Positions 17,791 to 36,252 of a stretch of 64,000 nt of DNA are shown one piece after another. The notes below the pieces were generated by a model, which saw nothing but the letters and a program-made list of their open reading frames with translations, did no database searches and was not told the DNA's origin. A program made the position numbers and the translations under genes. The stretch spans positions 1 to 64,000 of the forward strand of contig NZ_BPFJ01000001.1 of the NCBI RefSeq assembly GCF_019972115.1. Reading direction: 5' to 3'. The DNA comes from Sulfurovum sp. TSL6. GTDB taxonomy: Bacteria; Campylobacterota; Campylobacteria; Campylobacterales; Sulfurovaceae. Each line of letters begins with the position of its first letter. The first letter of the stretch is position 1.

Positions 17791-17813
17791 TTTGGATAAA
17801 TGGAGTGTCTCTT

Positions 17814-19175: not shown

Positions 19176-19972
19176 ATAAATTGATTAGTATCATTGTATT
19201 GGCACTGATGGTCACCTCTGCACATGCAATAGAAATCGAATTAAGCGGTTCTGTGATCTCTGATAATCAAAAGATGATCACCAGCCGTTATATGGGTTAT
19301 GTAAAACATATGGCTGTGTCTGAGGGTGACATAGTGAAGAAGGGACAACTTCTTTATGAGATAGATTCAAAAGAGATAGAGTCTGCAGAGAGACAAGTGG
19401 ATCTGGCTATTTCTCAAGCCAGGCTTTCTCTGCAGATGAATAAAAATCAATATAATAATGTGCTTACCAACCTTGCAAGACATGAAAGACTTTATAAGAA
19501 GAAAATGGTTTCCAAATATGAGTTTGAAATGTTGCAACTTTCTGCTAAAAATCTTAAAGATATGGTTACCATTGCCGAACAACAGGTGAAACAAGCATTG
19601 GCTAAAAAAGATGAAGTCTTAAATCAGTACAATTATTTGAAGATCCATGCACCAAATGATGGGGTTATTGTCGATAAACGCCTGAATGAAGGAGAAATGG
19701 CAATTCCCGGTATGCCGGCAGTTACGTTAACTGATTTGAGTAGATTGACCATCGTAGCAGAAGTGAGTGAAACACAATTAAAATACATACATCTAGGTAA
19801 AAAAGCTGATATCTCGATACCTTCTATCGGTTTTAGCACGGTGGGTGAAATCACTTCTATTATCCCAAGTTCAAACCCCATGACACACAAGTTTAAGATC
19901 AAAATAAAATTTGATAGGAAGAAGAGTTCTTCTGTTTATCCTGGTATGTATACCAAAATTATGATCAAGTAG
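19172..19972 (+). CDS. RND efflux periplasmic adaptor (HlyD/AcrA family)
   Basis: A 266-residue membrane-fusion protein linking the inner-membrane pump to the TolC channel. Signal peptide NKLISIIVLALMVTSAHA with no lipobox cysteine, so probably a soluble periplasmic adaptor. A first lipoyl half (MAVSEGDIVKKGQLLYEID) is followed by a helical hairpin (about 70-150) and a second lipoyl half (YLKIHAPNDGVIVDKRLNEGE). The beta-barrel has IPSIGFSTVGEITSIIPSSNPMTHKFKI and the end is YPGMYTKIMIK. It is short for the family. A clear paralogue lies at 32479-33291. GGGGGAAA is the RBS. Confidence 0.88.
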   Translation: MNKLISIIVLALMVTSAHAIEIELSGSVISDNQKMITSRYMGYVKHMAVSEGDIVKKGQLLYEIDSKEIESAERQVDLAISQARLSLQMNKNQYNNVLTNLARHERLYKKKMVSKYEFEMLQLSAKNLKDMVTIAEQQVKQALAKKDEVLNQYNYLKIHAPNDGVIVDKRLNEGEMAIPGMPAVTLTDLSRLTIVAEVSETQLKYIHLGKKADISIPSIGFSTVGEITSIIPSSNPMTHKFKIKIKFDRKKSSSVYPGMYTKIMIK

Positions 19973-19975
19973 GCA

Positions 19976-21616
19976 ATGATGGAAAATAAACAAGCCTATG
20001 AAATAGTCAATATAGCAGGAAGACTTGCAAAAAGTTTTTTACGTAATCCATTAACAATAGTTCTGGGTGCAATGTTACTATTGATTGGATATATAGCACT
20101 CACTACAATGCCCAGAGAAGAGGATCCACAAATTGCTATATCTGGCGGTGCTGTGATCGTTGCAATGCCAGGGGCAACACCCAAAGAAGTTGAAAATATC
20201 ATTATAAATCCATTAGAACGTAAATTGCGTGAAATACGCGGGATAGAACATATCTATGGTATGGCTATGGACAATGTAGGTATCGTGAATGTCATGTACT
20301 ACATTGGTGAAGATAGAGAAGATTCAAATTTAAAGCTCTATGACAAAGTGATGCAAAATATGGATCTTATGCCTAAGGGTGTCATGCAACCTAGTGTCAA
20401 ACCCTTTGATATTGATATCGATATCCCGATCGTTACGGTGGCATTTTATCCAAAAACAAAAAGCACTATAGATGAAGTTAAACTTTTTGAAATGGTCAGA
20501 AAAGTCCAGCAAAAAATAAATGCCGTTGACAATGTGGCTAAAACAACACTGAAAGGCGAGAGAAAAGCACAGTACAATATTGAGGTTGATATGGGGAAAC
20601 TTTCAGCCTATCACCTCTCTTTGGGACAGATCATGCAGGCAGTACAATCTTTGGCTGTTTCGGTACCTGATGTAAAGGGTAGAACAACAAAGAATCATTT
20701 AGTGATATTTGGTGTCAAAAATGCCATTGAAAGTATAGATGATGTAGGGAATGTGATCGTAGCACAGTATATGGGGTCACCGATCTACCTCAAAGATGTT
20801 GCGAAGGTAACCGAGGGCGTGGATACACAAAATTTTCAAACGGCAAAGATTTTATTGAAAGCAGACATGCATCATGAAAAGAGTGTAGATCATCAATCGG
20901 TACAGGTCAAATCACGTTTGAGTGAAGAGAAAAATCAAATTACACTGACCGTTGCAAAACTTGCTGGAACCAATGCAGTATTTGTTGCTGAGGATGTACT
21001 TGAGGTCCTTCAAAGCTATGAACATGAATTTGAAAAGTTAGGTATTGGATATCTTATTACGAGAAACTATGGTGTCCGGGCAAATGAAGCTGTAAATGAA
21101 TTGATGCATCACTTGATCATTACGATCGTGATCATTGCTTTAATGTTGGTTTTCGCTTTAGGTTGGAGAGAATCTATCATTGTTACATTTACTGTACCAG
21201 CCATTTTGGCAGTCACACTGTTTACTGCATGGATGACGGGTCAGACGATGAACAGGATCACACTCTTTGCACTCTTGTTATCCTTGGGATTGCTGGTAGA
21301 TGCTGCTATTATCGTGATTGAAAATATTCACAGACATTTACATAGCCATGGCGTTGAAGCCAAAGAGATGGATGAACTTTTAGTTGAAGCAACGGATGAG
21401 ATAGGTGCACCGACGAATATAGCAACATTGGCTATTATCTTAACGATGGTTCCCATGGCATTTGTTGGAGGGATGATGGGATCCTTCATGAAACCTATCC
21501 CCTATAATGTACCAGTCGCATTGATCGCTTCATTATTTGTAGCCTATATCTTTACGCCTTATTTGAGTTTAAAGCTATTGAAAAAGCCAGATCATCATGA
21601 TGAAGGATCAAAATAA
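19976..21616 (+). CDS. RND efflux permease, N-terminal half
   Basis: 546 residues corresponding to the first half of an AcrB-type pump. TM1 (IVLGAMLLLIGYIALTTM) is followed by MPREEDPQI, the porter domain (PN1/PN2 and half of the docking domain), and TM2-TM6. The TM4 proton-relay segment reads GLLVDAAIIVIENIHRH, with one Asp where AcrB has two, as in heavy-metal and some other RND pumps. The protein ends just after TM6 in a short hydrophilic tail. Its TAA overlaps the ATG of the next gene (TAATG). Together the two ORFs equal one normal RND protein of about 1,120 residues. Confidence 0.88.
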   Translation: MMENKQAYEIVNIAGRLAKSFLRNPLTIVLGAMLLLIGYIALTTMPREEDPQIAISGGAVIVAMPGATPKEVENIIINPLERKLREIRGIEHIYGMAMDNVGIVNVMYYIGEDREDSNLKLYDKVMQNMDLMPKGVMQPSVKPFDIDIDIPIVTVAFYPKTKSTIDEVKLFEMVRKVQQKINAVDNVAKTTLKGERKAQYNIEVDMGKLSAYHLSLGQIMQAVQSLAVSVPDVKGRTTKNHLVIFGVKNAIESIDDVGNVIVAQYMGSPIYLKDVAKVTEGVDTQNFQTAKILLKADMHHEKSVDHQSVQVKSRLSEEKNQITLTVAKLAGTNAVFVAEDVLEVLQSYEHEFEKLGIGYLITRNYGVRANEAVNELMHHLIITIVIIALMLVFALGWRESIIVTFTVPAILAVTLFTAWMTGQTMNRITLFALLLSLGLLVDAAIIVIENIHRHLHSHGVEAKEMDELLVEATDEIGAPTNIATLAIILTMVPMAFVGGMMGSFMKPIPYNVPVALIASLFVAYIFTPYLSLKLLKKPDHHDEGSK

Positions 21617-23340
21617 TGAAAAATCTTGAAAGTTTTATTTATGATATTCTTGATGACAAGTCAAAGAAAAAACTGGTGATCATTTTAACAGCTGCAGCAT
21701 TTTTCTTAGCACTTTTAATGTTCCCGACCAAATTGGTCCTGGCAAAAATGTTGCCGGGAAAAAGTGATAATACATTTTCTGTTTATATTGATACACCTAC
21801 GGGTTCATCGATAGAGCAGACAAAAGCTGTGAGTGACTGTGTGATCGATTTTCTAAAACAAGAAGATGAAGTGATGAATATAGAGCTTTTCTTGGGACAA
21901 GGTATTCCACTGGATTATGCAGGTCTAGTCAAAGGCGCGAGTATGAAACGTACTGAAAATGTTTCAGAAATAGCTGTGAACCTTACAGATAAGCATCATC
22001 GTGAAGAACCCTCATTTCTTATGGTGAAACGTTTAAGACCTAAGATTCAGGCTGAATGTACCTCTTTAACAAGAGGTACGAACATTAAATTTGTAGAGCA
22101 GCCATCCGGACCTCCCACATTGGCATCTGTTGTTGTTGAAGTACATGGTGATGATATGGAAAAAATAAGAGATCTCGCTGTAGATGTAGCAGATGTTCTC
22201 TCCCAAACAGAAGGGTTGGTTGATATTGATCTTATGGCAGATGAAAAATATGAAAGATATGAACTTATACCTGACAAAGAAAAAGTTGTTAGAAGCGGTC
22301 TAGGTGTCGGTCAAGTAAACAATATCATCTATCTTGCTTTTGAAGGTAAGGTCATAGCGCATAAGAATTCTCAAAATTCACCGGACCAGATACCTATATT
22401 TTTGGTATTGGATAATAGCAGTAAGAAGTTATCTGTATCCAATGAAGATGCATTGCAAAGCAAACTTTCTTCATTGAATTTAATGAATAAGAAGGGGATG
22501 ATGGTCCCATTAAGTGAAGTGGTTACGATTCGCAAAGTGAAGTCAAACCCTATGATCATGCATAAAGATCTTTCTCGTATGGTGAATGTGATCGCTGAAA
22601 CCGATATGGTTTCACAGGTCTATCCTCTTTTGGAGGCACGCAGTATGATGCTTGAAAAATTTGAAAAAGATTATAGGATTACAAAAGCAGGATTATCAAC
22701 CTATATGTTTGATTTTACTTTAGAAGACAAACAAACCCATGAAAAATTTCTCATACGTTGGGATGGTGAAATGAAAGTGACACTTGATACTTTTAGAGAC
22801 CTGGGTGCTGCATTTATCGCTGCATTGATACTGATCTTCTTGTTATTGGTCATTTATTATAAGAGTTTTGCAATCAGCGGTATTGTACTACTAGGTTCAT
22901 TCCTTTCCCTTATAGGGGTTATTATAGGACACTGGGTAGCAAACTGGTTTACTTCTGAGACTTTCTTCCTGACTGCTACTTCTCTTATTGGTTTTATCGC
23001 ATTGATAGGGATAAGTTCACGAAATTCATTGCTTCTTATAGATTTTGCGAAGTCTTTAATGGAGATTGAAGGTATCAAAAAACGTAGAGCTATTGCCATT
23101 GCAGCAGCAACCAGAGCAAAACCTATTGCTTTGACTGCCGTTGCCATTATTTTAGGTTCTGCATTGCTTGCAGGGGATCCGGTGTTTGGTGGGCTTGGTG
23201 TTGCGCTTATTTCGGGTACCGTTGCGGCAGTATTTGTTTCACTTCTTTTTATTCCGGTACTGATGGATAATGCAAAAGCGATGGATTTTGAACCCATTGA
23301 TCATTCAAAAGCACATCGCAACATTGCTATCACTAAGTAA
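21616..23340 (+). CDS. RND efflux permease, C-terminal half
   Basis: 574 residues corresponding to the second half of an AcrB-type pump. It has a short cytoplasmic start, TM7 (LVIILTAAAFFLALLMF), the PC1/PC2 porter domain starting NTFSVYIDTPTGSSIEQT, and TM8-TM12. TM10 reads GISSRNSLLLIDFAKS, with Arg at the position of the AcrB relay Lys940. The gene begins inside the stop codon of the N-terminal half, so translation is coupled. The break falls exactly in the cytoplasmic TM6-TM7 loop and neither half is degraded, so it looks like a genuine two-gene pump rather than a recent frameshift. Confidence 0.88.
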   Translation: MKNLESFIYDILDDKSKKKLVIILTAAAFFLALLMFPTKLVLAKMLPGKSDNTFSVYIDTPTGSSIEQTKAVSDCVIDFLKQEDEVMNIELFLGQGIPLDYAGLVKGASMKRTENVSEIAVNLTDKHHREEPSFLMVKRLRPKIQAECTSLTRGTNIKFVEQPSGPPTLASVVVEVHGDDMEKIRDLAVDVADVLSQTEGLVDIDLMADEKYERYELIPDKEKVVRSGLGVGQVNNIIYLAFEGKVIAHKNSQNSPDQIPIFLVLDNSSKKLSVSNEDALQSKLSSLNLMNKKGMMVPLSEVVTIRKVKSNPMIMHKDLSRMVNVIAETDMVSQVYPLLEARSMMLEKFEKDYRITKAGLSTYMFDFTLEDKQTHEKFLIRWDGEMKVTLDTFRDLGAAFIAALILIFLLLVIYYKSFAISGIVLLGSFLSLIGVIIGHWVANWFTSETFFLTATSLIGFIALIGISSRNSLLLIDFAKSLMEIEGIKKRRAIAIAAATRAKPIALTAVAIILGSALLAGDPVFGGLGVALISGTVAAVFVSLLFIPVLMDNAKAMDFEPIDHSKAHRNIAITK

Positions 23341-24083: not shown

Positions 24084-27000
24084 TTACTTTTTAAATACTT
24101 TCTCACAATCTTTTATCATGGCATCCGGTATGGTCGCAATGGTCATAAATTCAGACATTTGTAACATCGGATACATATAGGCGATATAATATTTGGGATC
24201 AAGTATCTTTGCTTTTCCATTCTCAATGAGAACAGGGTAAGGGAGCATTGCTGCATTGTTCCTACCAATTCTTCTTGTAAAGGTCCCGGTTCTTCTAGAG
24301 AGTTGAATACCGATCAGTGTTGAACCATTTTCCAGATCTTGTTTAAAAAGTACTTTATCGTTATTTTTAATTCTTTCTAGCAGATCATTACCAGAAGCTA
24401 CCTCGATCATATCTTCATAATGAGGCATACCATTCATAAATTGATATTTTGGCAATAGTTGGAATTTGAGTGCATCTTTCGAATTTTTTAATTTAGGGAA
24501 CTGTGTCATAAGTTTCACTAAAATCTTTTTGGCTGCTTTTTCATCAAAATCACTTTGTAAAAATCCTTTTGTCATATAAAGAGGATTGGTAATACTGGTC
24601 GTTTTATCTTTTGTATCCACAAGTACACGTAAGGATGCTATAAAGCCTCTATTTTCCTTACTTGCCATACTGACCAGTGATTTATCTGTAAAGACTACCG
24701 AAATGAGTGTTTTCTTTTTATCGACCGGAACAGAGGTCAAGACTTCAAACCCTGCTGCTCGAAGTTTTTCTTCTACGGTTTTTACATCTATAAATGGACC
24801 TCGAAGATATGCTGCTATCCTTCCCTGCGTTACTTCTCCGATCCTTGTATGGGTACTTTGTTTCAGTTTCTTTTTCTTATCAAACCTATGAGGTATATAG
24901 TTTGGTGGTATACGTTTTGAGAATTTAATGCTCCTATCTAATGTCTTTTTATTTTCTTCAGCATTAATACATACAGGTACTTCTGGTACCTCGGGTATAG
25001 GAATTTCTACCATACCATCTGCAGTTTTGATCTTTTGTACTTTTGCTATTTTGGATTTAGGTTCTAATATTGTTTTAAATGGTTGTTCTTTAGGTACAGC
25101 TATTTTGCTTACGTTTGTATCCTCTTTTATTTCAGCTTTGCATAAATCGGCTTGCAGTAGGGTATTCGTATTGGACGTTGCCTTCATTCCGAATGCAGTG
25201 AGGACCTCAGGTATTTCTTTGTCCAGTTTATTGATAAGTCCTACTCTCTTTTCATCAATGATATTTAAAGTCGTTGACCAGTTTTCAAGTCTTAACATAC
25301 CTACTACAAGTTTGTTTGAGCCTTTCTTACTATACACATACATGGTACAAGGCGCAAAAAGACCTGCCTCCGGGCGAGCCCCTTCATTATCAAACATGCT
25401 ATAGGAGAACCCTAAGTGACAAAGAGAATAGGTCCAGAAAGCATCATACCCTTCTAAGATCTCTTCAGCATCGTCCCTGCCTTCCATAAAATTATGGTAT
25501 CCGGCAATAAGATATCCTTTATTGATAAAGGCGAGTTCAAAACTATTTTGGAACTCTTCGAGAAATTCATCTAAGTCTTCAGGTGCTTCAAATGCATATG
25601 CAAAGTTATGCATACGATTTTCCGGAAGTGTTTTATAGGTGAGGTATGATTTTGTATATTTGAGCCCTTTAGCTCTGAATTCTGCTTCTACTTTTGCATT
25701 AAGTGGTTTTATTGAGTCTACAAATGTCTCTCTGACTTTTTTGTCTTCTATCCCTATCATATCCAAGAAGGCTTTCGGCATGATATGACCGACATGTGTC
25801 CTATTTTCATCCAATTTTTTGTAGATCAGCATATTGAATGGAGCAGTCGATGCTATACGGGGGTCGATATTAAGCAGCGGTAATATCACTTTGTCATTGA
25901 CAACAGATAAAAAGCTCAGTGTATCCAATACGGTTGAACCATACTTCTCTTCATACTGATCATTGACTCTATGATGTGGATCTGTGACTTCATAATTGAT
26001 TGTTTTTAGCTCCTCTAAAATGATCGTCTTGTACGGGTTTTCCACATTACCTTCTAGTGTGTACATGACGGCTAGGGCATTGTCAGGCACAGGTATCTCT
26101 TGTACAATCGTTTGTTTGACCTTTAGAGGCTCTTTGTTAGGAACTGTTTTGGTTGCTACTACAGTTTTTTTAGCCTTTGATACTGGAACTGAAAGTACTT
26201 TGGGTCTTTCTTTAAGTGGATTGACATTGGAAACAGCTGTCATGCCATAGGTCGTAAGAATTTCAGGTATTTCTCTATCAAGTTGTTCTACAAGAGCAAC
26301 TCTTTCTTTATCTGTAATATTCAGGGTATCAGACCAGTTATGCAGTCTATACATTCCAACGACAAGTTTATTGGTTCCTTTTTTGATATACATATACATC
26401 GTACAAGGCGCAAACATACCTGCCTCCGGACGAGCTCCTTCATTGTCAAACATATGGTATGAGAACTTTAGGTGACAAAGAGAATAGGTCCAAAAAGCAT
26501 CATAACCTGAGAGTATCTCCTCCGCATCATCCGTAGATTCCATGAAGTTATGGTATCCGGCGATGAGATATCCTTTGTCAATAAAGGCAAGTTCAAAACT
26601 ATTTTGTAATTCACTGATAAAATCATCCATATCTTCAGGTACTTCAAATGCATATTCGAAATTGATCATTCTTTGTTCAGGAAGTCTTTTATACGGCATG
26701 TACGATTTTTGACCGCCTAATTCTTCTGCGATTAATCTATCCAGAGATGTAAATGTAGCCGTAAACGTCTCTCTGACCTCTTTGTCTTCTATGCCTAATA
26801 TATCTAACATTATTTTAGGCATGAGGTGTCCCACGTGTGTTTTATTTTCATCAAGTTTTTTATGTATGAGCATATTGAATGGTGCAAAACCTGCAATACG
26901 CGGGTCAATGTTCAGCAGTGGCAAAATAACTTCATCATTGACTACAGGCATAAAACTGAGTACATTAAGCACCGTTGAACCATACTTGGTTTCATACTGG

Positions 27001-27227
27001 TCATTGACCCTTTTGTGTGGATCTGTGAGTTGAAAACCTATATTTTTTAACTTTTTCTCCATAAGGGCATTATATTTTTCCTCTATATTGCAATCAATCG
27101 TATAGAAGACTGCGAGTGCATCATCATTTGCAGCTGTTGTAGAAGTGCTTTCCTGTGTGGCAGTAGCAAAAAGAAGAGCAGGAAGAAATAGAGCACAATA
27201 GAGCATGAGATTTTTAATGTTATTCAC
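24084..27227 (-). CDS. Large exported protein with duplicated DUF302-like modules
   Basis: About 1,047 residues from the GTG at 27227, preceded by AAAGGA; a longer form from ATG 27290 adds 21 residues. N-terminal signal peptide ends near LLFATA. Two ~310-residue modules (about 35-345 and 375-695) are very similar to each other, sharing for example DPHKRVNDQYE-type, NSFELAFI-KGYLIAGYHNFME and EGARPEAG-FAPCTMY blocks. Each module appears to contain two DUF302-like halves. A linker rich in Lys/Glu/Pro/Val follows, then a divergent third region (about 810-1047, RGPFIDVKTVEEKLRAAGFE). The function is unknown. Conserved Cys in FAPCTMY is seen in both modules. Upstream on the same strand lies the repeat-protein gene array. 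Confidence 0.75.
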   Translation of the reverse strand: MNNIKNLMLYCALFLPALLFATATQESTSTTAANDDALAVFYTIDCNIEEKYNALMEKKLKNIGFQLTDPHKRVNDQYETKYGSTVLNVLSFMPVVNDEVILPLLNIDPRIAGFAPFNMLIHKKLDENKTHVGHLMPKIMLDILGIEDKEVRETFTATFTSLDRLIAEELGGQKSYMPYKRLPEQRMINFEYAFEVPEDMDDFISELQNSFELAFIDKGYLIAGYHNFMESTDDAEEILSGYDAFWTYSLCHLKFSYHMFDNEGARPEAGMFAPCTMYMYIKKGTNKLVVGMYRLHNWSDTLNITDKERVALVEQLDREIPEILTTYGMTAVSNVNPLKERPKVLSVPVSKAKKTVVATKTVPNKEPLKVKQTIVQEIPVPDNALAVMYTLEGNVENPYKTIILEELKTINYEVTDPHHRVNDQYEEKYGSTVLDTLSFLSVVNDKVILPLLNIDPRIASTAPFNMLIYKKLDENRTHVGHIMPKAFLDMIGIEDKKVRETFVDSIKPLNAKVEAEFRAKGLKYTKSYLTYKTLPENRMHNFAYAFEAPEDLDEFLEEFQNSFELAFINKGYLIAGYHNFMEGRDDAEEILEGYDAFWTYSLCHLGFSYSMFDNEGARPEAGLFAPCTMYVYSKKGSNKLVVGMLRLENWSTTLNIIDEKRVGLINKLDKEIPEVLTAFGMKATSNTNTLLQADLCKAEIKEDTNVSKIAVPKEQPFKTILEPKSKIAKVQKIKTADGMVEIPIPEVPEVPVCINAEENKKTLDRSIKFSKRIPPNYIPHRFDKKKKLKQSTHTRIGEVTQGRIAAYLRGPFIDVKTVEEKLRAAGFEVLTSVPVDKKKTLISVVFTDKSLVSMASKENRGFIASLRVLVDTKDKTTSITNPLYMTKGFLQSDFDEKAAKKILVKLMTQFPKLKNSKDALKFQLLPKYQFMNGMPHYEDMIEVASGNDLLERIKNNDKVLFKQDLENGSTLIGIQLSRRTGTFTRRIGRNNAAMLPYPVLIENGKAKILDPKYYIAYMYPMLQMSEFMTIATIPDAMIKDCEKVFKK

Positions 27228-27399: not shown

Positions 27400-28173
27400 C
27401 TAATCGTTGATTGTTTTAACAGAATCATTTAGATTTTCAGAAACAGACTTGACTGATTCTCTATTGTCATTGGAAGCAGTTTTCACTGCATCAGCTGTAT
27501 TTTCATTGACTGACTGAATAGAAGCTCTTGAATCACTAGAAATTGTTTTTGTAGAGTCAGTTGCATTTGTCGCTACTCTAGATATAGAATCTTTTGTATC
27601 ATTAGAGATTGTACTGGTTGAACTGTTCATATCATTTGAAACTGTTTTCACTGAATCTTTAGAGTCACTAGACACTGTTTGTACAGAATCACTTGAGTCA
27701 TTTGAAACTGTTTTCACCGAATCTTTAGAGTCATTAGAAACCGTTTGTACAGAATCTTTTGCATCTTTAGATACAGTAATTGTTGAGTCTTTCATATCAG
27801 TACTAAGGTTTGTACCACTCTCTTTCATATCAGAAGTGGTAGTTCGAAGGGAGTCTTTGGTATCAGTTGAAAGATCCGTCGTTGCTTTACTGAGATCAGA
27901 AGTGGTATTGACTTCCACTGTTTTAATGTCATCAGAGACTTTCATTGAAGTATCTTTAGCATCTTCACTGACATTTGTTACAGTTCTTTCAGCACTTTGT
28001 GTTGTTTCAACTGCACCGTCTTTCATAGTAGTCACAGAATCTTTTGCATCTTTACTCATACTGATAGCCGCTTCTTTCATATCTTTGAACATATCGTTAA
28101 AGTCAAAATCTGCTTGTACACTCGTTCCTAATAATACAGCCACTGCTGCAGACGTCGTGATCATTCTTTTCAT
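27400..28173 (-). CDS. Exported 11-residue-repeat protein A
   Basis: 257 residues, family not recognised. A signal peptide (KRMITTSAAVAVLLGTSVQA) is followed by a conserved block DFDFNDMFKDMKEAA. From there to the end the protein is a run of about 20 units of 11 residues, in register at the C-terminus: DSVQTVSNDSK, DSVKTVSNDSS, DSVQTVSSDSK and so on. Units are rich in Ser, Asp, Thr, Val, Lys and Asn, with no Cys or Trp. Hendecad periodicity suggests a long amphipathic or LEA-like helix. Its own leader (RBS GGGGAAG) and terminator indicate a single-gene transcript. Function unknown. Confidence 0.8.
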   Translation of the reverse strand: MKRMITTSAAVAVLLGTSVQADFDFNDMFKDMKEAAISMSKDAKDSVTTMKDGAVETTQSAERTVTNVSEDAKDTSMKVSDDIKTVEVNTTSDLSKATTDLSTDTKDSLRTTTSDMKESGTNLSTDMKDSTITVSKDAKDSVQTVSNDSKDSVKTVSNDSSDSVQTVSSDSKDSVKTVSNDMNSSTSTISNDTKDSISRVATNATDSTKTISSDSRASIQSVNENTADAVKTASNDNRESVKSVSENLNDSVKTIND

Positions 28174-28390
28174 TACTTCCCCTTGTATAAGTATTTATAA
28201 ATAAAAGATATCATTTATTATGTTAAATTAAACTTAATATTTTTTATATTATTAATAATAAATATTTATATATTAAACTATAGAATCATATTATTATAAA
28301 TGAAACTCGAATCATTATCATGATGAAAAGCAGGGTAGGAAAGCAACCTTTTATAGTGGTTTCCTATGATGAGGTGTACTATAATAGAGC

Positions 28391-29236
28391 TTACTTATTG
28401 GTAGTTTTGTGTTTCTTTTTCATATGTTCTGTATATTCATCTTGAGTGATGGCTTTGGTGTCTTTACCTTGTGAGATATCTTTAAAAGAATCATTTAGAT
28501 TTGATGCAACTTCATCTATAGAGTCTCTCGTATCATTAGAAATGGTTTTAGTCATATCACTTGTATGCGTTGTAGTTGACTCTAGTGCATCACTTGAATC
28601 ATTTGAAACGGTTTTAGCAGACTTTTCTACATAGTGTGTCACAGAATCTACAGCATCTATAGAATCATTTGAGACATCTTCAGTGGATCTTTTTGTATCA
28701 TTTGAAAGAGTTTTGAGAGACTCAACAGAATCACTGCTCATATTTTCTGCCGTATCACGTGAGTCTTCAGAAACAGTTTCCATAGAGTTCCTGGCATCAC
28801 CTGAAACATCTTCAATGGAGTCTGATGCATCTGAAGAAACGGCTTCAACACTATCTTCAATGTCAGTAGAAATTGCATCTGTTGTATCTTTAAGGTCATC
28901 ACTTGTATCAGTCATAGCATCTTCCGTATCTTCAGATACCGATTCCATTGCATCTCTACCATCTGTCCATGTATCAGATGTGGCAGTTTCAATATCATCT
29001 GACACTTTCTCTGAAACATCTTCAACATCGGAATTTACAGCACGAACGCTTCTTTCACTGCTTTTAGAAACTTCCTCCACACCGTCTTTCATAGCATCCA
29101 TACTATCTTTTGCATCTTCGGTCATTGCGGTAGCTACGTCTTTCATATCGTCAAACATATCTCCAAAACTAAATCCAGCTTGGGCATTTGTTAAGAAAGC
29201 AGTAACTACTATCAATGGTGTAAATATTTTTTTCAT
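28391..29236 (-). CDS. Exported 11-residue-repeat protein B
   Basis: 281 residues; the most divergent intact member of the array. Signal peptide (KKIFTPLIVVTAFLTNAQA) and the block GFSFGDMFDDMKDVA align with the other copies. The repeat is still exactly 11 residues (DAMESVSEDTE, DSVEAVSSDAS, DSIEDVSGDAR, NSMETVSEDSR) but more acidic, with Glu replacing Lys. A unique Lys/His-rich tail (EYTEHMKKKHKTTNK) follows the last repeat. The divergence suggests an older duplication and possibly a distinct role. RBS GAGG precedes the ATG. Confidence 0.8.
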   Translation of the reverse strand: MKKIFTPLIVVTAFLTNAQAGFSFGDMFDDMKDVATAMTEDAKDSMDAMKDGVEEVSKSSERSVRAVNSDVEDVSEKVSDDIETATSDTWTDGRDAMESVSEDTEDAMTDTSDDLKDTTDAISTDIEDSVEAVSSDASDSIEDVSGDARNSMETVSEDSRDTAENMSSDSVESLKTLSNDTKRSTEDVSNDSIDAVDSVTHYVEKSAKTVSNDSSDALESTTTHTSDMTKTISNDTRDSIDEVASNLNDSFKDISQGKDTKAITQDEYTEHMKKKHKTTNK

Positions 29237-29353
29237 GCAGTAAACCTCTTATAGGATGATAATTGATGGTATCAATCGTTATTTTAAACATCTCTTCACG
29301 TAAAAATTGAGATAGAAGATCAAGAAACAATAGAGCACGTCAAGAGAGGTAAA

Positions 29354-29405
29354 AGCAACTCACGTAGGAGTTGCTAAGAGAGATAGAGAGCAAAGTACTC
29401 TATCT
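29354..29405 (-). terminator. Double hairpin after repeat-protein gene C
   Basis: Two 8-bp stems: AGATAGAG/CTCTATCT (29381-29405) and AGCAACTC/GAGTTGCT (29354-29375). The second is followed by TTTTACC on the minus strand. They lie directly downstream of gene C. Confidence 0.6.
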
Positions 29406-29412
29406 AGAGTGA

Positions 29413-30186
29413 TTAATCGTTAAGTGTTTTCACTGAATCGTTTAGGTTTTCTGAAACAGACTTCACAGACTCTCTCTGGTCATTCGAAGCGGTTTTCACT
29501 GCATCGCTTGTATTTGTTGCTACTGAATCTACTGAGTCTGTTGAGTCTTTAGAAATTTGTTTTGTAGCATCATTTGCATTGCTTGCAACAGTATCTACAG
29601 CATCTTGAGAGTCACTAGAGACAGTTTTCACGGAGTCAGCAGAATCATTTGAAACAGTTTTCACAGAGTCCGCAGAGTCGCTAGAAACAGTTTTTACAGA
29701 GTCAGTAGAGTCACCAGAAACAGTTTTTATAGAATCTGATGAATCGTTAGAAACAGTTTTCACTGAACTTGCTGTATCGGAAGAGACAGCAATAGTAGAA
29801 TCTTTCATCTCTTTAGAAGCTACTGTTGAAGAATCTTTAAGATCTTTTGTCGTATTTGTAATAGAATCTTTTGTATCTGTAGATACTGCATTTACAGTAT
29901 CTCTACTGTCCTTTGATGTAGAAACTTCAGCTGTTTTAAGATCATCAGAGACTTTTACTGAAGTATCTTTCGTATCACTACTTACGTTAGTCACAGTTCT
30001 TTCAGCACTTTGTGATGTTTCTACTGTACCATCTTTCACAGCAACCACAGAATCTTTAGCATCTTTACTCAGACTGATGGCAGCTTCTTTCATATCTTCG
30101 AACATTTCTCCAAAGTCAAAATCAGCTTGTGCACTCGTTACTAATAATGCAGCTACTGCTACAGAAGTCGTGATCATTTTTTTCAT
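29413..30186 (-). CDS. Exported 11-residue-repeat protein C
   Basis: 257 residues. Signal peptide (KKMITTSVAVAALLVTSAQA), conserved DFDFGEMFEDMKEAA block, then about 20 hendecads including DSVKTVSSDSA, DSVKTVSNDSA and DSVKTVSSDSQ, ending DSVKTLND. Long stretches are nearly identical to protein E (for example DSSTVASKEMKDSTIAVSSD), pointing to recent duplication or gene conversion. Its ~150-bp leader is also nearly repeated upstream of the decayed copy D. RBS AAAAAGG lies before the ATG. Confidence 0.8.
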   Translation of the reverse strand: MKKMITTSVAVAALLVTSAQADFDFGEMFEDMKEAAISLSKDAKDSVVAVKDGTVETSQSAERTVTNVSSDTKDTSVKVSDDLKTAEVSTSKDSRDTVNAVSTDTKDSITNTTKDLKDSSTVASKEMKDSTIAVSSDTASSVKTVSNDSSDSIKTVSGDSTDSVKTVSSDSADSVKTVSNDSADSVKTVSSDSQDAVDTVASNANDATKQISKDSTDSVDSVATNTSDAVKTASNDQRESVKSVSENLNDSVKTLND

Positions 30187-30411
30187 ATGTTGTAACCTTT
30201 TTAATAATTATATATAGATAGTAACAGTAATTATTTTAAAAATATCTTAAAACAAAAATATAAGTATAATTTTATTAAATATTAATAAATTATAAAAAAT
30301 ATTGTTTAAAGTGAAAGATTAGAGTCAGCAAGAAGTAAAAATAGCACGCATGGGTATCATCTATCGAATAGGGTGAAATCAGTTATCAGGTAGAATGGAA
30401 CATTGAGGATA

Positions 30412-30755
30412 TTACAGAGTTATGTAGGTTTTACAAACAGACATCCTAGACTCTCTATTGTTATTAGAAGCAGTTTTACAGTAAGGCCTTATTTTTTAAC
30501 AATATTCTTGATGGAGTCTTCAGAGTCCATAATAGCGGTGGATACAGAATAAACAGTCTCTTAACTGTTTTTAGATGCATCCTTAGTTGTTTTGGGGTCA
30601 GCAGTAACGTGAACTGTTTTATCTTGAGAATCTTTAGTGATTGTGAGTGCAGCTTCTTTCATATCTTCGAACATTTCTCCAAAGTCAAAATCAGCTTGCG
30701 CACTCGTTACAAATAATGCAGCTACTGCTACAGAAGTCGTGATCATCTTTTTCAT
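30412..30755 (-). pseudogene. Decayed repeat-protein copy D
   Basis: The first 64 codons encode an intact signal peptide and DFDFGEMFEDMKEAA block like protein C, then hit a TAA after only a short shifted repeat. Beyond the stop the same frame still reads repeat-like residues (ETVYSVST, MDSEDSIKNIV) until a second stop. Further on, DNA matching the C-terminal codons of the other copies (about 30412-30480) persists with small indels. An internal deletion plus nonsense decay explains it. A short secreted product from the first ORF (30561-30755) is possible but unlikely. Confidence 0.75.
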
Positions 30756-30937
30756 ACTATAACCTTTTTTAATAATTTATGCGCAAATAGTAGCAGTAAT
30801 TATTTTAATCATATCTTAAAATAAAAATAAAAATATAATTTTATCAAATACAAATAAATTATTAAAAAATATGGTTTAAAGTAGAAGATTAGAGTGAGTA
30901 TAAAGTAAAGACAACACAGTGGGTTATCTTATATGAT

Positions 30938-30963
30938 CGATAGCAGGCTGGTACCTGCTATCG
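30938..30963 (-). terminator. Terminator after repeat-protein gene E
   Basis: Perfect 10-bp stem CGATAGCAGG / CCTGCTATCG with a 6-nt loop, 8 bp from the gene E stop codon. Confidence 0.65.
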
Positions 30964-30970
30964 AGTAGCA

Positions 30971-31741
30971 TTAATCGTTAAGTGTTTTCACAGAATCATT
31001 TAGATTTTCAGAAACAGTCTTCACAGACTCTCTATTGTCATTAGAAGCAGTTTTTGCCGCATCACTTGTATTTGCTGCTACTGAATCTACAGAATCTTTA
31101 GAGTCTTTAGAAATTTGTTTTGTAGCATCATTTGCATTGGTTGCAACTGTGTCTATAGAATCTTTAGAGTCACCAGAGATCGTTTTTACAGAGTCAGATG
31201 AATCACTAGAAACCGTTTTCACAGTGTCTGCTGAATCGCTAGAAACGGATTGCACTGATGAATTCATATCATTAGAGACCGTTTTTACAGAGTCAGCTGA
31301 ATCGCTTGAAACAGTTTTTACGGAACTTGCTGTATCGGAAGAGACAGCGATAGTAGAGTCTTTCATCTCTTTAGAAGCTACCGTTGAAGAATCTTTAAGA
31401 TCTTTTGTTGTATTGGTAATAGAATCTTTTGTATCTGTTGATACAGAAACTACAGTATCTCTACTGTCCTTAGACGTAGAAACTTCAGAAGTTTTAAGAT
31501 CATCAGACACTTTGACTGAAGTATCTTTTGCATCAGCACTTACGTTAGTCACAGTTCTTTCAGCACTTTGTGTTGTTTCTACTGTACCATCTTTCACAGC
31601 AACAACAGAATCTTTAGCATCTTTACTCATACTGATGGCAGCCTCTTTCATATCTTTGAACATTTCATTTAAGTCATTAGCCTGTATATTCGTCAATAAT
31701 AATGCAGCTAGTGCTACAGAAGTTGTGATCATCTTTTTCAT
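30971..31741 (-). CDS. Exported 11-residue-repeat protein E
   Basis: 256 residues from the ATG at 31741, chosen over the longer ORF because AAAAAGGGG lies at RBS distance and the signal peptide (KKMITTSVALAALLLTNIQA) starts there. The conserved block is shortened to NDLNEMFKDMKEAA. About 20 hendecads follow (DSVKTVSSDSA, DSVKTVSNDMN, DTVKTVSSDSS), ending DSVKTLND like proteins A and C. First gene of the array on the minus strand and divergent from the cytochrome c' gene. Function unknown; the long open antisense frame is a by-product of the repeats. Confidence 0.8.
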   Translation of the reverse strand: MKKMITTSVALAALLLTNIQANDLNEMFKDMKEAAISMSKDAKDSVVAVKDGTVETTQSAERTVTNVSADAKDTSVKVSDDLKTSEVSTSKDSRDTVVSVSTDTKDSITNTTKDLKDSSTVASKEMKDSTIAVSSDTASSVKTVSSDSADSVKTVSNDMNSSVQSVSSDSADTVKTVSSDSSDSVKTISGDSKDSIDTVATNANDATKQISKDSKDSVDSVAANTSDAAKTASNDNRESVKTVSENLNDSVKTLND

Positions 31742-32067
31742 TCTGAACCCCTTTTTATAATTTTGGATAAGTAATAGTAACATGTTATATATTCAATTTA
31801 ACTTATGATCTAAATAATTAACAGTTATGATAATCACTATTATTGTTGAAGTTATGATGGTTCAGATGAGTGTATTGGAAACATCATTTCTAGATGGTTA
31901 CGCTTTAGAAGTAAGCTTGTAAGCATGAATCTGTTATGAGATTTACATAATTATTTTTGATTTAATTCATCATCATAATCAATTTAATGATTATCTGATA
32001 CAATACTTATAGGGTGTATAAAATATATCGTTAAGTATGTTGTATAGTAGGAAAAAAAGGAAAATAA
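31742..32067. other. Divergent intergenic region
   Basis: 326 bp between divergent gene E and the cytochrome c' gene. Very AT-rich with several GATAAT/ATTAT-type half-sites (about 31825-31845 and 31965-32000) that are loosely Fur-box-like. It probably carries both promoters. No gene, repeat copy or RNA was identified. Confidence 0.4.
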
Positions 32068-32478
32068 ATGAAAAAATTAGTGGCAGTTTACGTCATCATA
32101 ATGACTTGTGGATTTGCGGAAGAGTACACGCAGGCAGATAGAATTTTTGACATGCAAAAGATGGCACAGGCGATGCAAGATATTCAGTCTGGTTTTTTCT
32201 ATAATAACCTGGATATAGTGAAAGCCGGTGCAAAAGATTTAAAAGAAACTGTTGTTAAAATAGGACCCATAAAAAAAGAAACAGAAAATAAAGATGTCTA
32301 TGAAAGATGGATGACCAATAATACGGCAATGACCAAACGAATACAAAGAAAGATTGCACAAAATACAGATGACATCGTTGCACGTTTTTCTGCTGGTGAT
32401 GCAACGCAAGCATTACAGTTTTATAGCAAGATATCATCAGAATGTATGAAATGCCATGTACGTTTGAGAAAATGGTAA
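32068..32478 (+). CDS. Cytochrome c'-like (class II) haem protein
   Basis: 136 residues with a signal peptide (KKLVAVYVIIMTCGFA) and a single haem-attachment motif CMKCH only seven residues from the C-terminus. That placement is typical of four-helix-bundle class II cytochromes. The first helix (FDMQKMAQAMQDIQSGFFYNNLDIVKAGAKDL) matches the cytochrome c' pattern. Probably periplasmic; such proteins bind NO or act in electron transfer, but the role here is open. The stop is immediately followed by the ATG of a membrane-fusion protein, so the two are co-translated. Confidence 0.8.
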   Translation: MKKLVAVYVIIMTCGFAEEYTQADRIFDMQKMAQAMQDIQSGFFYNNLDIVKAGAKDLKETVVKIGPIKKETENKDVYERWMTNNTAMTKRIQRKIAQNTDDIVARFSAGDATQALQFYSKISSECMKCHVRLRKW

Positions 32479-33291
32479 ATGATGAAAATTAAGACATTAA
32501 TCATTGTAATATTATTATTCAATGTATTTTCTCAGGCGGGGGATATCATTTTAACAGGTACCGTTGTCTCTGATGGCCAGAAAATGATAGGCAGCCGTTT
32601 TATGGGATATATCAAAAAAGTACATGTAAAACTAGGTGACAAAGTAAAAAGAGAAGATGAACTGTATGAAATGGAGTCTGCTGAATTTGACATCATGAAA
32701 TCTCAAGCTGATCTCATGCTTGAACAGTCAAAGATCATTGTTGAATATTGGCGTGAAAAATTAAGAGATGTCAATACCAAAAAATTAAGATTAAAAAATA
32801 CCTATCGTGACGATAATAAGATCTTCCTTACAGATATGTATGATCTAGATGCTCAAGCAGCAAATATAGAGTCGATGTTAGAAGCAATGCAAATCATGGT
32901 TAAAGAAGCCACCATAAAAGCAAAGCAAATGGCAAGTACCTATAACTACATCAAAATGAAAGCGCCTTCTGATGGTGTTGTTGTACAAAAGAATATCAAA
33001 GTGGGTGATATGATCATGCCCGGTATGTTAACCATCATGATCGTAGATACAGAAAATTTAGAGATCGATGTGTCTATTTCAGAAAGTATTATATCGAGAG
33101 TGAAGACTGGTATGAAAGTACCAGTAGAAATACCATCTCTTGATTACAAAACGATGGGCATCATACATGCTATTGTACCTGATGCCAATCCTATGACACA
33201 TAAAATAAAAATGCGTATACGTTTTAACAGAGGAACTAAGAACATTTTCCCTGGAATGTATGCGAAAGTGACACTGAAGAACGGCAAATAA
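32479..33291 (+). CDS. Periplasmic adaptor (HlyD/AcrA family), orphan copy
   Basis: 270 residues, clear paralogue of the adaptor at 19172-19972. It shares the opening LTGTVVSDGQKMIGSRFMGYI, the lipoyl half KLGDKVKREDELYEMES, a helical hairpin, YIKMKAPSDGVVVQKNIKVGD, and the C-terminal DANPMTHKIKMRIRF and FPGMYAKVTLK. Signal peptide lacks a lipobox. No TolC or pump gene adjoins it; the only neighbour in the transcript is the cytochrome c'-like gene. It may exchange with the adaptor of the split RND pump or serve a pump elsewhere. ATG 32482 is an equally possible start. Confidence 0.85.
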   Translation: MMKIKTLIIVILLFNVFSQAGDIILTGTVVSDGQKMIGSRFMGYIKKVHVKLGDKVKREDELYEMESAEFDIMKSQADLMLEQSKIIVEYWREKLRDVNTKKLRLKNTYRDDNKIFLTDMYDLDAQAANIESMLEAMQIMVKEATIKAKQMASTYNYIKMKAPSDGVVVQKNIKVGDMIMPGMLTIMIVDTENLEIDVSISESIISRVKTGMKVPVEIPSLDYKTMGIIHAIVPDANPMTHKIKMRIRFNRGTKNIFPGMYAKVTLKNGK

Positions 33292-33951: not shown

Positions 33952-35097
33952 TTAATTGTTTGCAGCGATAATACCTATAGCCAACTGCTGGGCAGTTAGA
34001 ACAGAAGCTTGTGTTGCAGCGATATTTGTATTTTGCAGTTCTTGTGTCAGAAGGATTTGATCTGCCGATACACCTATATTATCAGCCATCAGAAGTATCT
34101 GGTCAGCCATTTCCAAAATATTGTTGGCAAGCTTACCAATATCAGAAGAGAGGCTTAGCATACTGTCCATAGCGTCAAGAAGTGTACTTGTACGTGTAAA
34201 GGACTGTGAAGCTTCAATAGCAGTCCCATAGCCATCCATCACTATACCTATAGAGTTCATGATAATGGAAAGATCAACCAATTTGTTCAATGCATCTGAG
34301 TTGATATAGATTGTATTTTGAACCATATCTGTATTAAGTAAATCTTTAAACTGCTCTACCTGAACTAAATAGTTATGAACATCTGTTTGAACATTGTCCA
34401 ACTCGCTAGCCATGTTCCAAGGATTTAAGCTCACTGATGCCATTTGGGCTACCAAGATATTTCCTTGAGTGATAAGTGTGTTCAAAGAAAGGTCATAACT
34501 TGCAGTTTCGATCACAGATACGAGGGCAAGTGTATTTGTCTGTGTTTGCAAGATAGTGTTTTGGGTAAGTATTAGGTTCTCACTTTGGATGACTTGCATC
34601 TCAAGGATACGATCTGCCATTAAACCGATATTGTCAGACATGATCAAGATATTGTCAGCCATTTCACCGATTCTATCAGCCATTTCACCAATGTCACTTG
34701 AAAGTTGCAACATGGCTGATATTGCATCAGCAAGTATGAAGGCATTCGTATCTGGTTGAATAAGCGTGATCTCATCTGACAAAAGGGATGATTGGTTAGA
34801 GAGTGATGCCACAGATACAAAGAGATTCTCAGTTAACAAGAGTGTCTCATTATCAAGTGTGATCGGTGAAGAAAAACTATCATTGAGAAGAACGATCGCA
34901 TTGACAATCTCTTTGGCTTGTTGATTCAGTGAGATCAATGATGCACATAGAGTAGTTGAATTCAGTTCTGCATTGGAGATGCTGCTGTTCAACTCTACCA
35001 TAGAGGTGTTGATATTGGCCAGGTCCGTTTTAAAGTCTGCTTGAAGCAATGAAGCCGATAATGCAAGTGCTGCAAAAAATTTAAGTATATGATTCAT
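33952..35097 (-). CDS. Exported Ile/Met-heptad coiled-coil protein 1
   Basis: 381 residues, family not recognised. Signal peptide (KFFAALALSASLLQA) then almost wholly helical sequence. Two copies of a ~60-residue module occur (about 135-195 and 315-375), each with a heptad run having Ile and Met at the core positions (SSDIGEMADRIGEMADNI; SSDIGKLANNILEMADQI) followed by a Gln/Asn/Thr-rich stretch. A single Cys is present (TLCASL, N-terminal region). Exactly the same length as its upstream neighbour, from which it is separated by 9 bp, so the two form an operon. Possibly a surface or periplasmic fibre. Confidence 0.78.
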   Translation of the reverse strand: MNHILKFFAALALSASLLQADFKTDLANINTSMVELNSSISNAELNSTTLCASLISLNQQAKEIVNAIVLLNDSFSSPITLDNETLLLTENLFVSVASLSNQSSLLSDEITLIQPDTNAFILADAISAMLQLSSDIGEMADRIGEMADNILIMSDNIGLMADRILEMQVIQSENLILTQNTILQTQTNTLALVSVIETASYDLSLNTLITQGNILVAQMASVSLNPWNMASELDNVQTDVHNYLVQVEQFKDLLNTDMVQNTIYINSDALNKLVDLSIIMNSIGIVMDGYGTAIEASQSFTRTSTLLDAMDSMLSLSSDIGKLANNILEMADQILLMADNIGVSADQILLTQELQNTNIAATQASVLTAQQLAIGIIAANN

Positions 35098-35106
35098 CTT
35101 TACTCC

Positions 35107-36252
35107 CTATAGTCCAAAATTTTTGATCACAGTGAGCATAATAGACTGTGATGTTAAAAGTGATGACTCTGTAAGTGCTACATTTGTCATCTGAATGTTT
35201 TGCGTAGTCACGATGTTATCTGACATCAGTCCTATATTGTCTGCCATGATGTAAATTTTATTGGTCATTTGCATGATACGGTCAGACATGACCCCTATAT
35301 CTTTTGTGAGTTGCAGCATCGTAGCTGTTGCATCTGAAAGAATAACGGTATCTGTCAAAGGTGCAAGCTGTTCGATCGTATTGGCATAAGTTTCCAATGA
35401 AGCACTTAGAGCACGATGTATACCGGAGAGGTCACCAAGCATTGTAAGCGTATCGGCATTGATATAGTGATTCATCTTTGCACTGTTTGTTACCATGAGA
35501 TCCAAAAGAGTTGTCATACTCTCTAGCAAGGTTACTGTTTGTGACTGAATAGATGCAAGTTCAGTTTGCATATTACTATTTGTAAGACTGGTTTGGTTCA
35601 TTTCATTTGAGAGAAGTTCTGTATTATCGATGATCTGTCCTAAGGTCAAATTATAGGTAATCGTAGAAAGTGAATCACTCAAAAGCACCATATTTTGCTG
35701 AGTGAGCAAAATAGAACTTTGTGTTAAAGCAATGTTTTGATTTTGAATCATTTGTGTCGTAATGATCCTGTCAGCCATCAAGCCGATATTGTCAGACATG
35801 ATCAAAATACGATCAGCCATCTCTAAAATACGGTCTGCCATTGCACCAATATCTTGAGAAAGTTGTAATATAGCATTGAGTCCGGCACTGTATTCAAAAA
35901 GTTCAGCAGTGTCAGTAATCGTATTTAACTCCATAGATAAACGAACTGACTCAACACTCATATTTTGACTTAAAGAGGATAAGTCATCTAGCACATCTAG
36001 ATCAGCATCGGTGACTGAAAAAGAAGACATAGTATCTGTGATGTTCTTAATGGTTAACGTATTATCTTCAATAGACTGATTCAATGTTCTCATCTGTGCA
36101 CATGAACCCTCCTGGTTGAAAGTGAAATTTGACAACTCACTATTGAGTGTATGGGTCTGGTTTAATAGACTTTGCAGATCAGTATGGATATCTGCACGTA
36201 ATGGCATACTGGCTAACAGTATGACAGTAAAAAACTTTATTAAGTTTTTCAT
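35107..36252 (-). CDS. Exported Ile/Met-heptad coiled-coil protein 2
   Basis: 381 residues, paralogue of the downstream gene. Signal peptide (KNLIKFFTVILLASMPLRA). Two copies of the same module: LSQDIGAMADRILEMADRI...NIGLMADRI (about 140-175) and LTKDIGVMSDRIMQM...NIGLMSDNI (about 315-350). The spacing I-x2-M-x3 is a textbook a/d heptad. A conserved single Cys (GSCAQM) aligns with that of protein 1 and could support dimer disulfides. First gene of the pair; divergent from dnaE. No enzymatic motif seen. Confidence 0.78.
   Translation of the reverse strand: MKNLIKFFTVILLASMPLRADIHTDLQSLLNQTHTLNSELSNFTFNQEGSCAQMRTLNQSIEDNTLTIKNITDTMSSFSVTDADLDVLDDLSSLSQNMSVESVRLSMELNTITDTAELFEYSAGLNAILQLSQDIGAMADRILEMADRILIMSDNIGLMADRIITTQMIQNQNIALTQSSILLTQQNMVLLSDSLSTITYNLTLGQIIDNTELLSNEMNQTSLTNSNMQTELASIQSQTVTLLESMTTLLDLMVTNSAKMNHYINADTLTMLGDLSGIHRALSASLETYANTIEQLAPLTDTVILSDATATMLQLTKDIGVMSDRIMQMTNKIYIMADNIGLMSDNIVTTQNIQMTNVALTESSLLTSQSIMLTVIKNFGL

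Follow-up and report, generated by a model that had tools for sequence, protein, structure and literature searches.

The window analyzed here, a stretch of 64,000 nucleotides (positions 1 to 64,000 of contig NZ_BPFJ01000001.1 of Sulfurovum sp. TSL6), carries on its minus strand, between 27400 and 31741, a tandem array of genes for exported proteins that are built of 11-residue repeats, or hendecads. An earlier reading made from the letters of the DNA alone (hereafter, the sequence-only reading) had described the array as four intact genes and one decayed copy, and the coordinates of its members bear this out:

30971 to 31741, minus strand: gene 4, an exported hendecad protein of 256 residues with 20 units; it opens the array and diverges from a cytochrome c'-like gene
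30420 to 30755, minus strand: the decayed copy, with remnants to about 30420, as recognized by tblastn and blastn against gene 3
29413 to 30186, minus strand: gene 3, an exported hendecad protein of 257 residues with 20 units
28391 to 29236, minus strand: gene 2, a diverged and more acidic protein of 281 residues with 22 units and a basic DEYxxHMKKK tail
27400 to 28173, minus strand: gene 1, a type-B paralogue of 257 residues with 20 units

Genes 3 and 4 are 85% identical, and gene 2 occupies a long branch in the tree of the family. In the decayed copy the signal peptide and the head are still intact (30561-30755, 64 residues), and over the first 135 bases it shares 91% identity with its neighbor; the head is followed by a stop codon (TAA), a central deletion and an out-of-frame 3' remnant. 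The whole genome (2.25 Mb in 7 contigs) contains no further copies.

A Sec-type signal peptide with a cleavage site of the AxA type has been kept in all five copies, and a purine-rich ribosome binding site precedes every one of them, just as had been proposed. The accompanying claim that every copy has its own hairpin terminator survives for gene 1 (27380-27354) and gene 3 (after 29413), the only two with a convincing hairpin and T-tract; it is less clear for gene 4, where the strong hairpin after 30971 lacks a T-tract, and for gene 2, where the hairpin after 28391 is weak. Promoter-like matches within the array do not exceed the chance level. On the plus strand, opposite the repeats, there are long open frames (27836-28204, 28683-29243 and 31035-31760) which are themselves repetitive and probably just reflect the composition of the hendecad codons.

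Repeat Register and Predicted Structure

The hendecad register runs unbroken from directly after the MFxDMK block to the C-terminus and fills the whole mature protein, rather than being confined to its C-terminal two thirds as was initially believed; the conserved block KDMKEAAISMS is unit 1 itself. Three of the array proteins consist of a head (MKK... ending in MF), 20 hendecads and an 8-residue end, and the gene 2 protein has 22 units and its basic tail. The strict period of 11 without insertions, which the sequence-only reading had emphasized, is thus correct, but the units are degenerate and not the approximately 15-20 exact copies that it had counted. Similarly, the F-x-[DE]-M-F-x-D-M-K block that it attributed to each protein is incomplete in gene 4, which reads NDLNEMFKDMK.

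The self-identity of the array proteins is 0.23-0.35 at lag 11 and 0.29-0.41 at lag 22, against a maximum over all lags of 0.19-0.22 in 1000 shuffles, and the periodicity of their hydrophobicity is strongest at 98.0-98.5 degrees per residue, as against 98.2 for a helix with 11 residues in three turns (11/3). The period of 11 is far beyond chance. Among 72 relatives, the distance from the block to the last recognizable unit varies from 128 to 337 residues, and these lengths are equal modulo 11 in 70 of them. Unit number evolves, with most members of the family having from 12 to about 38 units; the register does not. The pattern derived from 1570 units reads D-S-[VAT]-K-T-[VI]-S-x-D-[TAL]-[KR]; the apolar positions (3, 6 and 10) line up as a narrow stripe bordered by serines, the acidic positions 1 and 9 lie towards one edge and the basic positions 4 and 11 towards the other. 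In one taxonomic family (f16) most of D9 and K/R11 are asparagine, and the stripe together with D1 and K4 are the only general features.

The 22,329 residues that follow the head block include 4 prolines, no cysteine and 165 glycines (0.7%). The near absence of proline in a chain so rich in Ser, Thr, Asp and Asn points to a helix that has been selected. The proteins are hydrophilic (grand average of hydropathy, GRAVY, -0.7 to -1.0), with almost no Cys, Trp or aromatic residues, about 25% hydrophobic residues and a net charge of -1.7 per 33 residues; their mean hydrophobic moment at the 11/3 angle, calculated per 33 residues, is 0.33, versus 0.13 for shuffled sequences. AlphaFold, when supplied with 44 relatives, folded one protein as a continuous helix over residues 25-256 (mean predicted local distance difference test score, pLDDT, 81). 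The model predicts a single helix of about 230 residues that would measure 35 nm if fully extended. The long helical rod that had been proposed fits this model, the 11/3 amphipathic period, the scarcity of proline and the modulo-11 lengths, and we consider this physical anatomy of the hendecad proteins to be very probably right.

No model in Pfam or NCBIfam scores above its cut-off for these proteins, the PDB contains no sequence match, and a Foldseek search with the hendecad model found nothing in the PDB, unsurprisingly for a single long helix; hence the assertion that they belong to no described family holds. For Apolipoprotein (PF01442) the best score, 33.9 bits, is under the gathering cut-off of 90 bits; such sub-threshold matches (E<0.001) occur in 30 of 44 members, and with ApoLp-III (PF07464) in 14 of 44. 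The excess of lag 22 over lag 11 and the angle of 98 degrees correspond to the 11/22-residue amphipathic period of Apolipoprotein. LEA_4 (PF02987), the model for late embryogenesis abundant (LEA) proteins, gave no match at E<=1 with the proteins of the window nor at 0.001 with the 44 members. Neither a PAT domain nor a C-terminal four-helix bundle is matched in Pfam, and the model is one helix.

Conserved Head, Selection, and Distribution

Two parts make up the conserved head: DFxFGDMFKDMK at the N-terminus of the mature protein, and units 3-5 (DGxVExSxSAE-RTxxxVSxDxK-DxxxKVSDDxK). In 23 dereplicated members from four taxonomic families, the polar positions are 93% conserved in unit 3 and 88% in unit 5, and 56-74% in the other head units. 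Such a concentration in units 3 and 5 is what a binding site would be expected to look like. Roughly estimated by the Nei-Gojobori method from sequences that are related to one another, the ratio of nonsynonymous to synonymous change (dN/dS) comes to about 0.24 for the head (2184 pairs) and likewise for repeat regions without gaps (73 pairs). The sequence-only reading had named a strong match to a characterized family and a lack of purifying selection on the repeats among the outcomes that would tell against it; as far as these have been checked, no strong family match was found and purifying selection is present.

A tree of 121 columns resolves two types of paralogue, gene 1 (27400) belonging to one and the genes at 29413 and 30971 to the other. 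Each type holds members from several species, which indicates that the tandem duplication is old and that both types have been retained. Two variants of the general plan were also observed. Members in loci L009, L011, L025, L038, L108-L112 and L124, from several taxonomic families, share a conserved basic C-terminal tail of the [DE]EYxxYxKLK type, possibly a second contact site. In L032, L036, L040, L044, L045 and L053 there is a subtype whose head is separated from the signal peptide by a linker rich in Ala, Pro and Glu; in L036, L040, L045 and L053 it adjoins ferredoxin-type, cytochrome and NapH-/NapD-like genes that belong to a nitrate/nitrous-oxide-type cluster.

When each species was represented by a single genome, a scan identified 60 loci, in Campylobacterota or close to them and mostly in Sulfurovum; within Sulfurovaceae the family occurs in 97 of 175 genomes. 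Strong matches within the order, most with E-values of 1e-50 to 1e-115, are spread over five taxonomic families (f1, f5, f6, f7 and f16), and a sixth (f20) has one weak match to the repeats only; a sample of the phylum contributed nothing further except a weak match limited to the repeats. Arrays elsewhere hold from one to four intact copies. No member was found in plasmid and phage collections, and there is thus no sign of mobility. A literature search turned up no paper in which Sulfurovum, Sulfurimonas or Campylobacterota are connected with LEA proteins or hendecads. As judged from its sequences, this is a real, selected and undescribed family of mainly sulfur-oxidizing Campylobacterota.

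Genomic Neighborhood

The best lead to the function of the array is its neighborhood, which the sequence-only reading did not see:

31742 to 32067: divergent promoter region, studied in an alignment of 51 such regions
32068 to 32478, plus strand: cytochrome c'-like gene, the divergent 5' neighbor, encoding an exported protein of 136 residues with a C-terminal CMKCH
32479 to 33291, plus strand: RND/HlyD-type periplasmic adaptor, the conserved partner of the cytochrome c'-like gene
24084 to 27203, minus strand: DUF302 protein, downstream of the array; a conserved 3' neighbor with a wider distribution than the hendecad family
17805 to 23340, plus strand: TolC-like outer membrane protein, RND adaptor and split RND pump

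A divergent small exported gene with a CxxCH motif is the 5' neighbor in 50 of the 71 loci that do not lie at a contig edge. It is usually followed by the RND/HlyD-type adaptor, and a DUF302 gene often lies 3' of the array; this layout recurs in other taxonomic families. In two loci (L109 and L110) what appears to be a single operon combines the cytochrome c'-like gene and the adaptor with the two halves of the RND pump; it diverges from the hendecad and DUF302 genes. The pump of the window consists of two consecutive open reading frames that encode its N- and C-terminal halves (19976-21616 and 21616-23340, plus strand); a split of the same kind is present in related loci of several taxonomic families.

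The model of the small cytochrome c'-like protein is a four-helix bundle (pLDDT 84) with the CxxCH in its last helix, the position that this motif occupies in cytochrome c'. Its best Foldseek matches are cytochromes cb562 and c' at an E-value of about 0.02, a weak kind of evidence on the strength of the fold alone since four-helix bundles match many chains. No Pfam or NCBIfam model passes for it, and a cytochrome c' in the PDB is reached at E 0.64 only.

The gene for this cytochrome (presence defined by E<1e-30, a cut-off within a gap between 1e-33 and 3e-21) was found in 77 of the 175 genomes of Sulfurovaceae; all 77 have the hendecad family, and none of the 78 family-negative genomes has the cytochrome gene, although the relatedness of the 175 genomes inflates the p-value of this co-occurrence. 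The direction of the association is informative: that cytochrome never occurs without the hendecad family. The DUF302 gene is present in 91 of 97 family-positive and 28 of 78 family-negative genomes. There was no association with SoxB, taken for thiosulfate oxidation (45/97 versus 40/78), or with NosZ, taken for nitrous-oxide reduction (36/97 versus 29/78), which weakens the case for a sulfur-particle coat or a role in denitrification. A comparable grouping has been described in Bradyrhizobium, where an RND pump and adaptor (bll5771-5772) lie close to a DUF302 protein (blr5777), all among the proteins differentially expressed at low oxygen (PMC6515984).

In the aligned divergent promoter regions, a -35-like TTTAAGT and a -10-like TGnTAnnAT have been kept. 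A Fur box was sought in the same regions, and 14 of 19 positions matched in 11 of the 51, against 3.1 expected; we do not claim it, since the regions are related to each other and 15 matching positions were never reached.

Three further observations concern the neighborhood. A genome that lacks the hendecad family has a cytochrome c'-like paralogue adjoining a DUF302 gene (G089:C19:3973-5734), which suggests an older pairing of cytochrome and DUF302. Another has the cytochrome c'-like gene and the head of a hendecad gene twice, in inverted orientation (G091:C1:1251264-1252919), and the two cytochrome copies score identically; this is either a true inverted duplication or an assembly artifact. 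Finally, the window encodes at 33952-36252 (minus strand) two tandem exported proteins of 381 residues, 39% identical, with internal helical repeats of the MADRI/LEMADNI type; they have no convincing Pfam or NCBIfam match, occur also in genomes G137 and G139, and look like another undescribed helical family.

Possible Functions of the Hendecad Proteins

The interpretation that we favor, with a probability of roughly 0.4, is that the proteins are amphipathic rods of the periplasm, each with a head that docks and a stalk of adjustable length, and that they serve an envelope module of cytochrome c', RND and DUF302 proteins. A soluble protein exported by the Sec system would form one very long amphipathic 11/3 helix; its conserved head (the mature N-terminus and units 3-5) would dock to a partner, and the stalk hendecads, free in number but added only as whole units, would supply length. 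The rods could then act as an envelope scaffold or tether of the module formed by the cytochrome c'-like protein, the RND adaptor and pump, and the DUF302 protein. We infer the periplasmic rather than extracellular location, the docking of the head and the role with the pump and cytochrome. A more specific version, in which the giant helix, docked by its head to this assembly, is an adjustable-length ruler or scaffold that spans or organizes the periplasm, is unlikely, though it would be the most novel.

Several facts weigh against the rod and its module. The cytochrome assembly is a candidate partner only, as neighboring genes may be co-inherited without their products interacting, and the genomes compared are not phylogenetically independent. 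No close cytochrome c'-like gene exists in 20 of the 97 family-positive genomes, and some hendecad genes are located elsewhere, for example adjoining a nitrate/nitrous-oxide-type cluster. The charged edges are largely asparagine in f16, so an electrostatic zipper between rods would not be universal. The remaining four AlphaFold models have mean pLDDT scores of 74, 48, 42 and 40, and Ser, Asp, Asn, Thr and Val favor helices only weakly; with three of five models at 40-48, the protein may be disordered when alone.

Such disorder is part of the possible, if rather unlikely, explanation that these proteins are a coat resembling perilipin or apolipoprotein, unfolded in solution and adopting the 11/3 helix on a hydrophobic or lipid surface of the envelope through many weak contacts along its length. 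Perilipin 4, the closest physical match, has a moment of 0.257 compared with 0.33 here, and the sub-threshold Apolipoprotein and ApoLp-III matches point in the same direction. The net charge of -1.7, however, argues against a simple binding of the lipid-droplet kind, given that reversal of the charge of perilipin 4 from +1 to -1 abolished droplet binding; the hydrophobic residues are about 25% versus 35%, and both surface and cargo (the inner leaflet of the outer membrane or a lipid carried by the pump) are hypothetical. Another explanation takes up the LEA-like label given by the sequence-only reading and envisages an abundant hydrophilic protectant that would become helical upon water loss or cold and shield periplasmic proteins and membranes. 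Hendecads, low hydrophobicity, the GRAVY values, the dearth of Cys, Trp and aromatics and the multiple copies would all suit it, but no member scanned matches a Pfam LEA model while most have sub-threshold Apolipoprotein matches, the polar conservation in units 3 and 5 exceeds any generic need for hydration, the genes have a fixed neighborhood with pump and cytochrome, and the hosts are largely marine and permanently wet. Hydrophilins are defined by high hydrophilicity with more than about 6% glycine, and at 0.7% the family falls outside that definition. We regard the protectant explanation as unlikely.

A parallel coiled-coil stalk or surface filament, like those of tetrabrachion or S-layer stalks and perhaps secreted to the surface, is decidedly improbable. 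The straight hendecad stripe, and the acidic edge opposite a basic one, would suit parallel packing; nonetheless, the core is Val/Ala/Thr rather than Ile/Leu, the sequences display no anchor, lipobox or surface-sorting signal, and the charged edges are mostly missing in f16. That the repeats are a neutral or selfish expansion devoid of function is scarcely credible: one of five copies has decayed and unit number is variable, but a dN/dS of about 0.24 in head and repeats, the strict register, the maintenance of two paralogue types across species, and the occurrence in five taxonomic families, mostly with the same neighbors, all oppose it. An ice-binding role was rejected by inference from the best conserved threonine (position 5), which is flanked by D1 and D9 on the charged face.

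If the ruler or scaffold were real, it would be a part of the bacterial envelope of a type not described before. The family as such would join the few giant 11/3 amphipathic helices (perilipin 4, synucleins, apolipoproteins) as an exported bacterial addition. Sulfurovum and its relatives are dominant sulfur-oxidizing bacteria of vents and seeps, and the hendecad proteins provide a handle on an uncharacterized envelope module of cytochrome c'-like protein, adaptor, split RND pump and DUF302. Because the natural variants differ largely in unit number, they are a ready-made length series for the ruler, coat and protectant models.

Comparison with Known Systems

Group 3 LEA proteins (PF02987) share with the family their hendecads, hydrophilicity and low complexity, but the hendecad proteins have a V/I/T stripe instead of an alanine one, a docking-like conserved block and a fixed genomic context. 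The right-handed hendecad coiled coils of the tetrabrachion type have the same 3-4-4 spacing of the apolar positions 3, 6 and 10; here, in contrast, the core is Val/Ala/Thr, the prediction is of a single chain in a monomer model, and there is no S-layer context. With apolipoproteins A1, A4 and E (PF01442) and apolipophorin III (PF07464) the family has in common the 11/22-residue amphipathic period, from which it departs by a weaker hydrophobic face and the lack of proline punctuation.

The most extensive likeness is to perilipin 4, a run of 11-mers without insertions or deletions that is poor in aromatics, rich in Val and Thr, and prefers D over E and K over R (PMC5889406; PMC8064757). Its hydrophobic moment of 0.257 is accompanied by a net charge of +1, whose reversal has the effect described above (PMC5889406), and its charged residues are placed asymmetrically and are thought to link neighboring helices (PMC8064757). 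The hendecad proteins resemble it in their long indel-free 11-mer run, weak amphipathic stripe, abundance of Thr and Val, few aromatics, and excess of Asp over Glu and Lys over Arg. Unlike it, they are exported, bacterial and net negative, have almost no glycine, bear a conserved head block, and lack the PAT and four-helix domains; no sequence homology between the two has been shown. The hendecad family is of the same physical class as perilipin 4 and the apolipoproteins and a member of neither.

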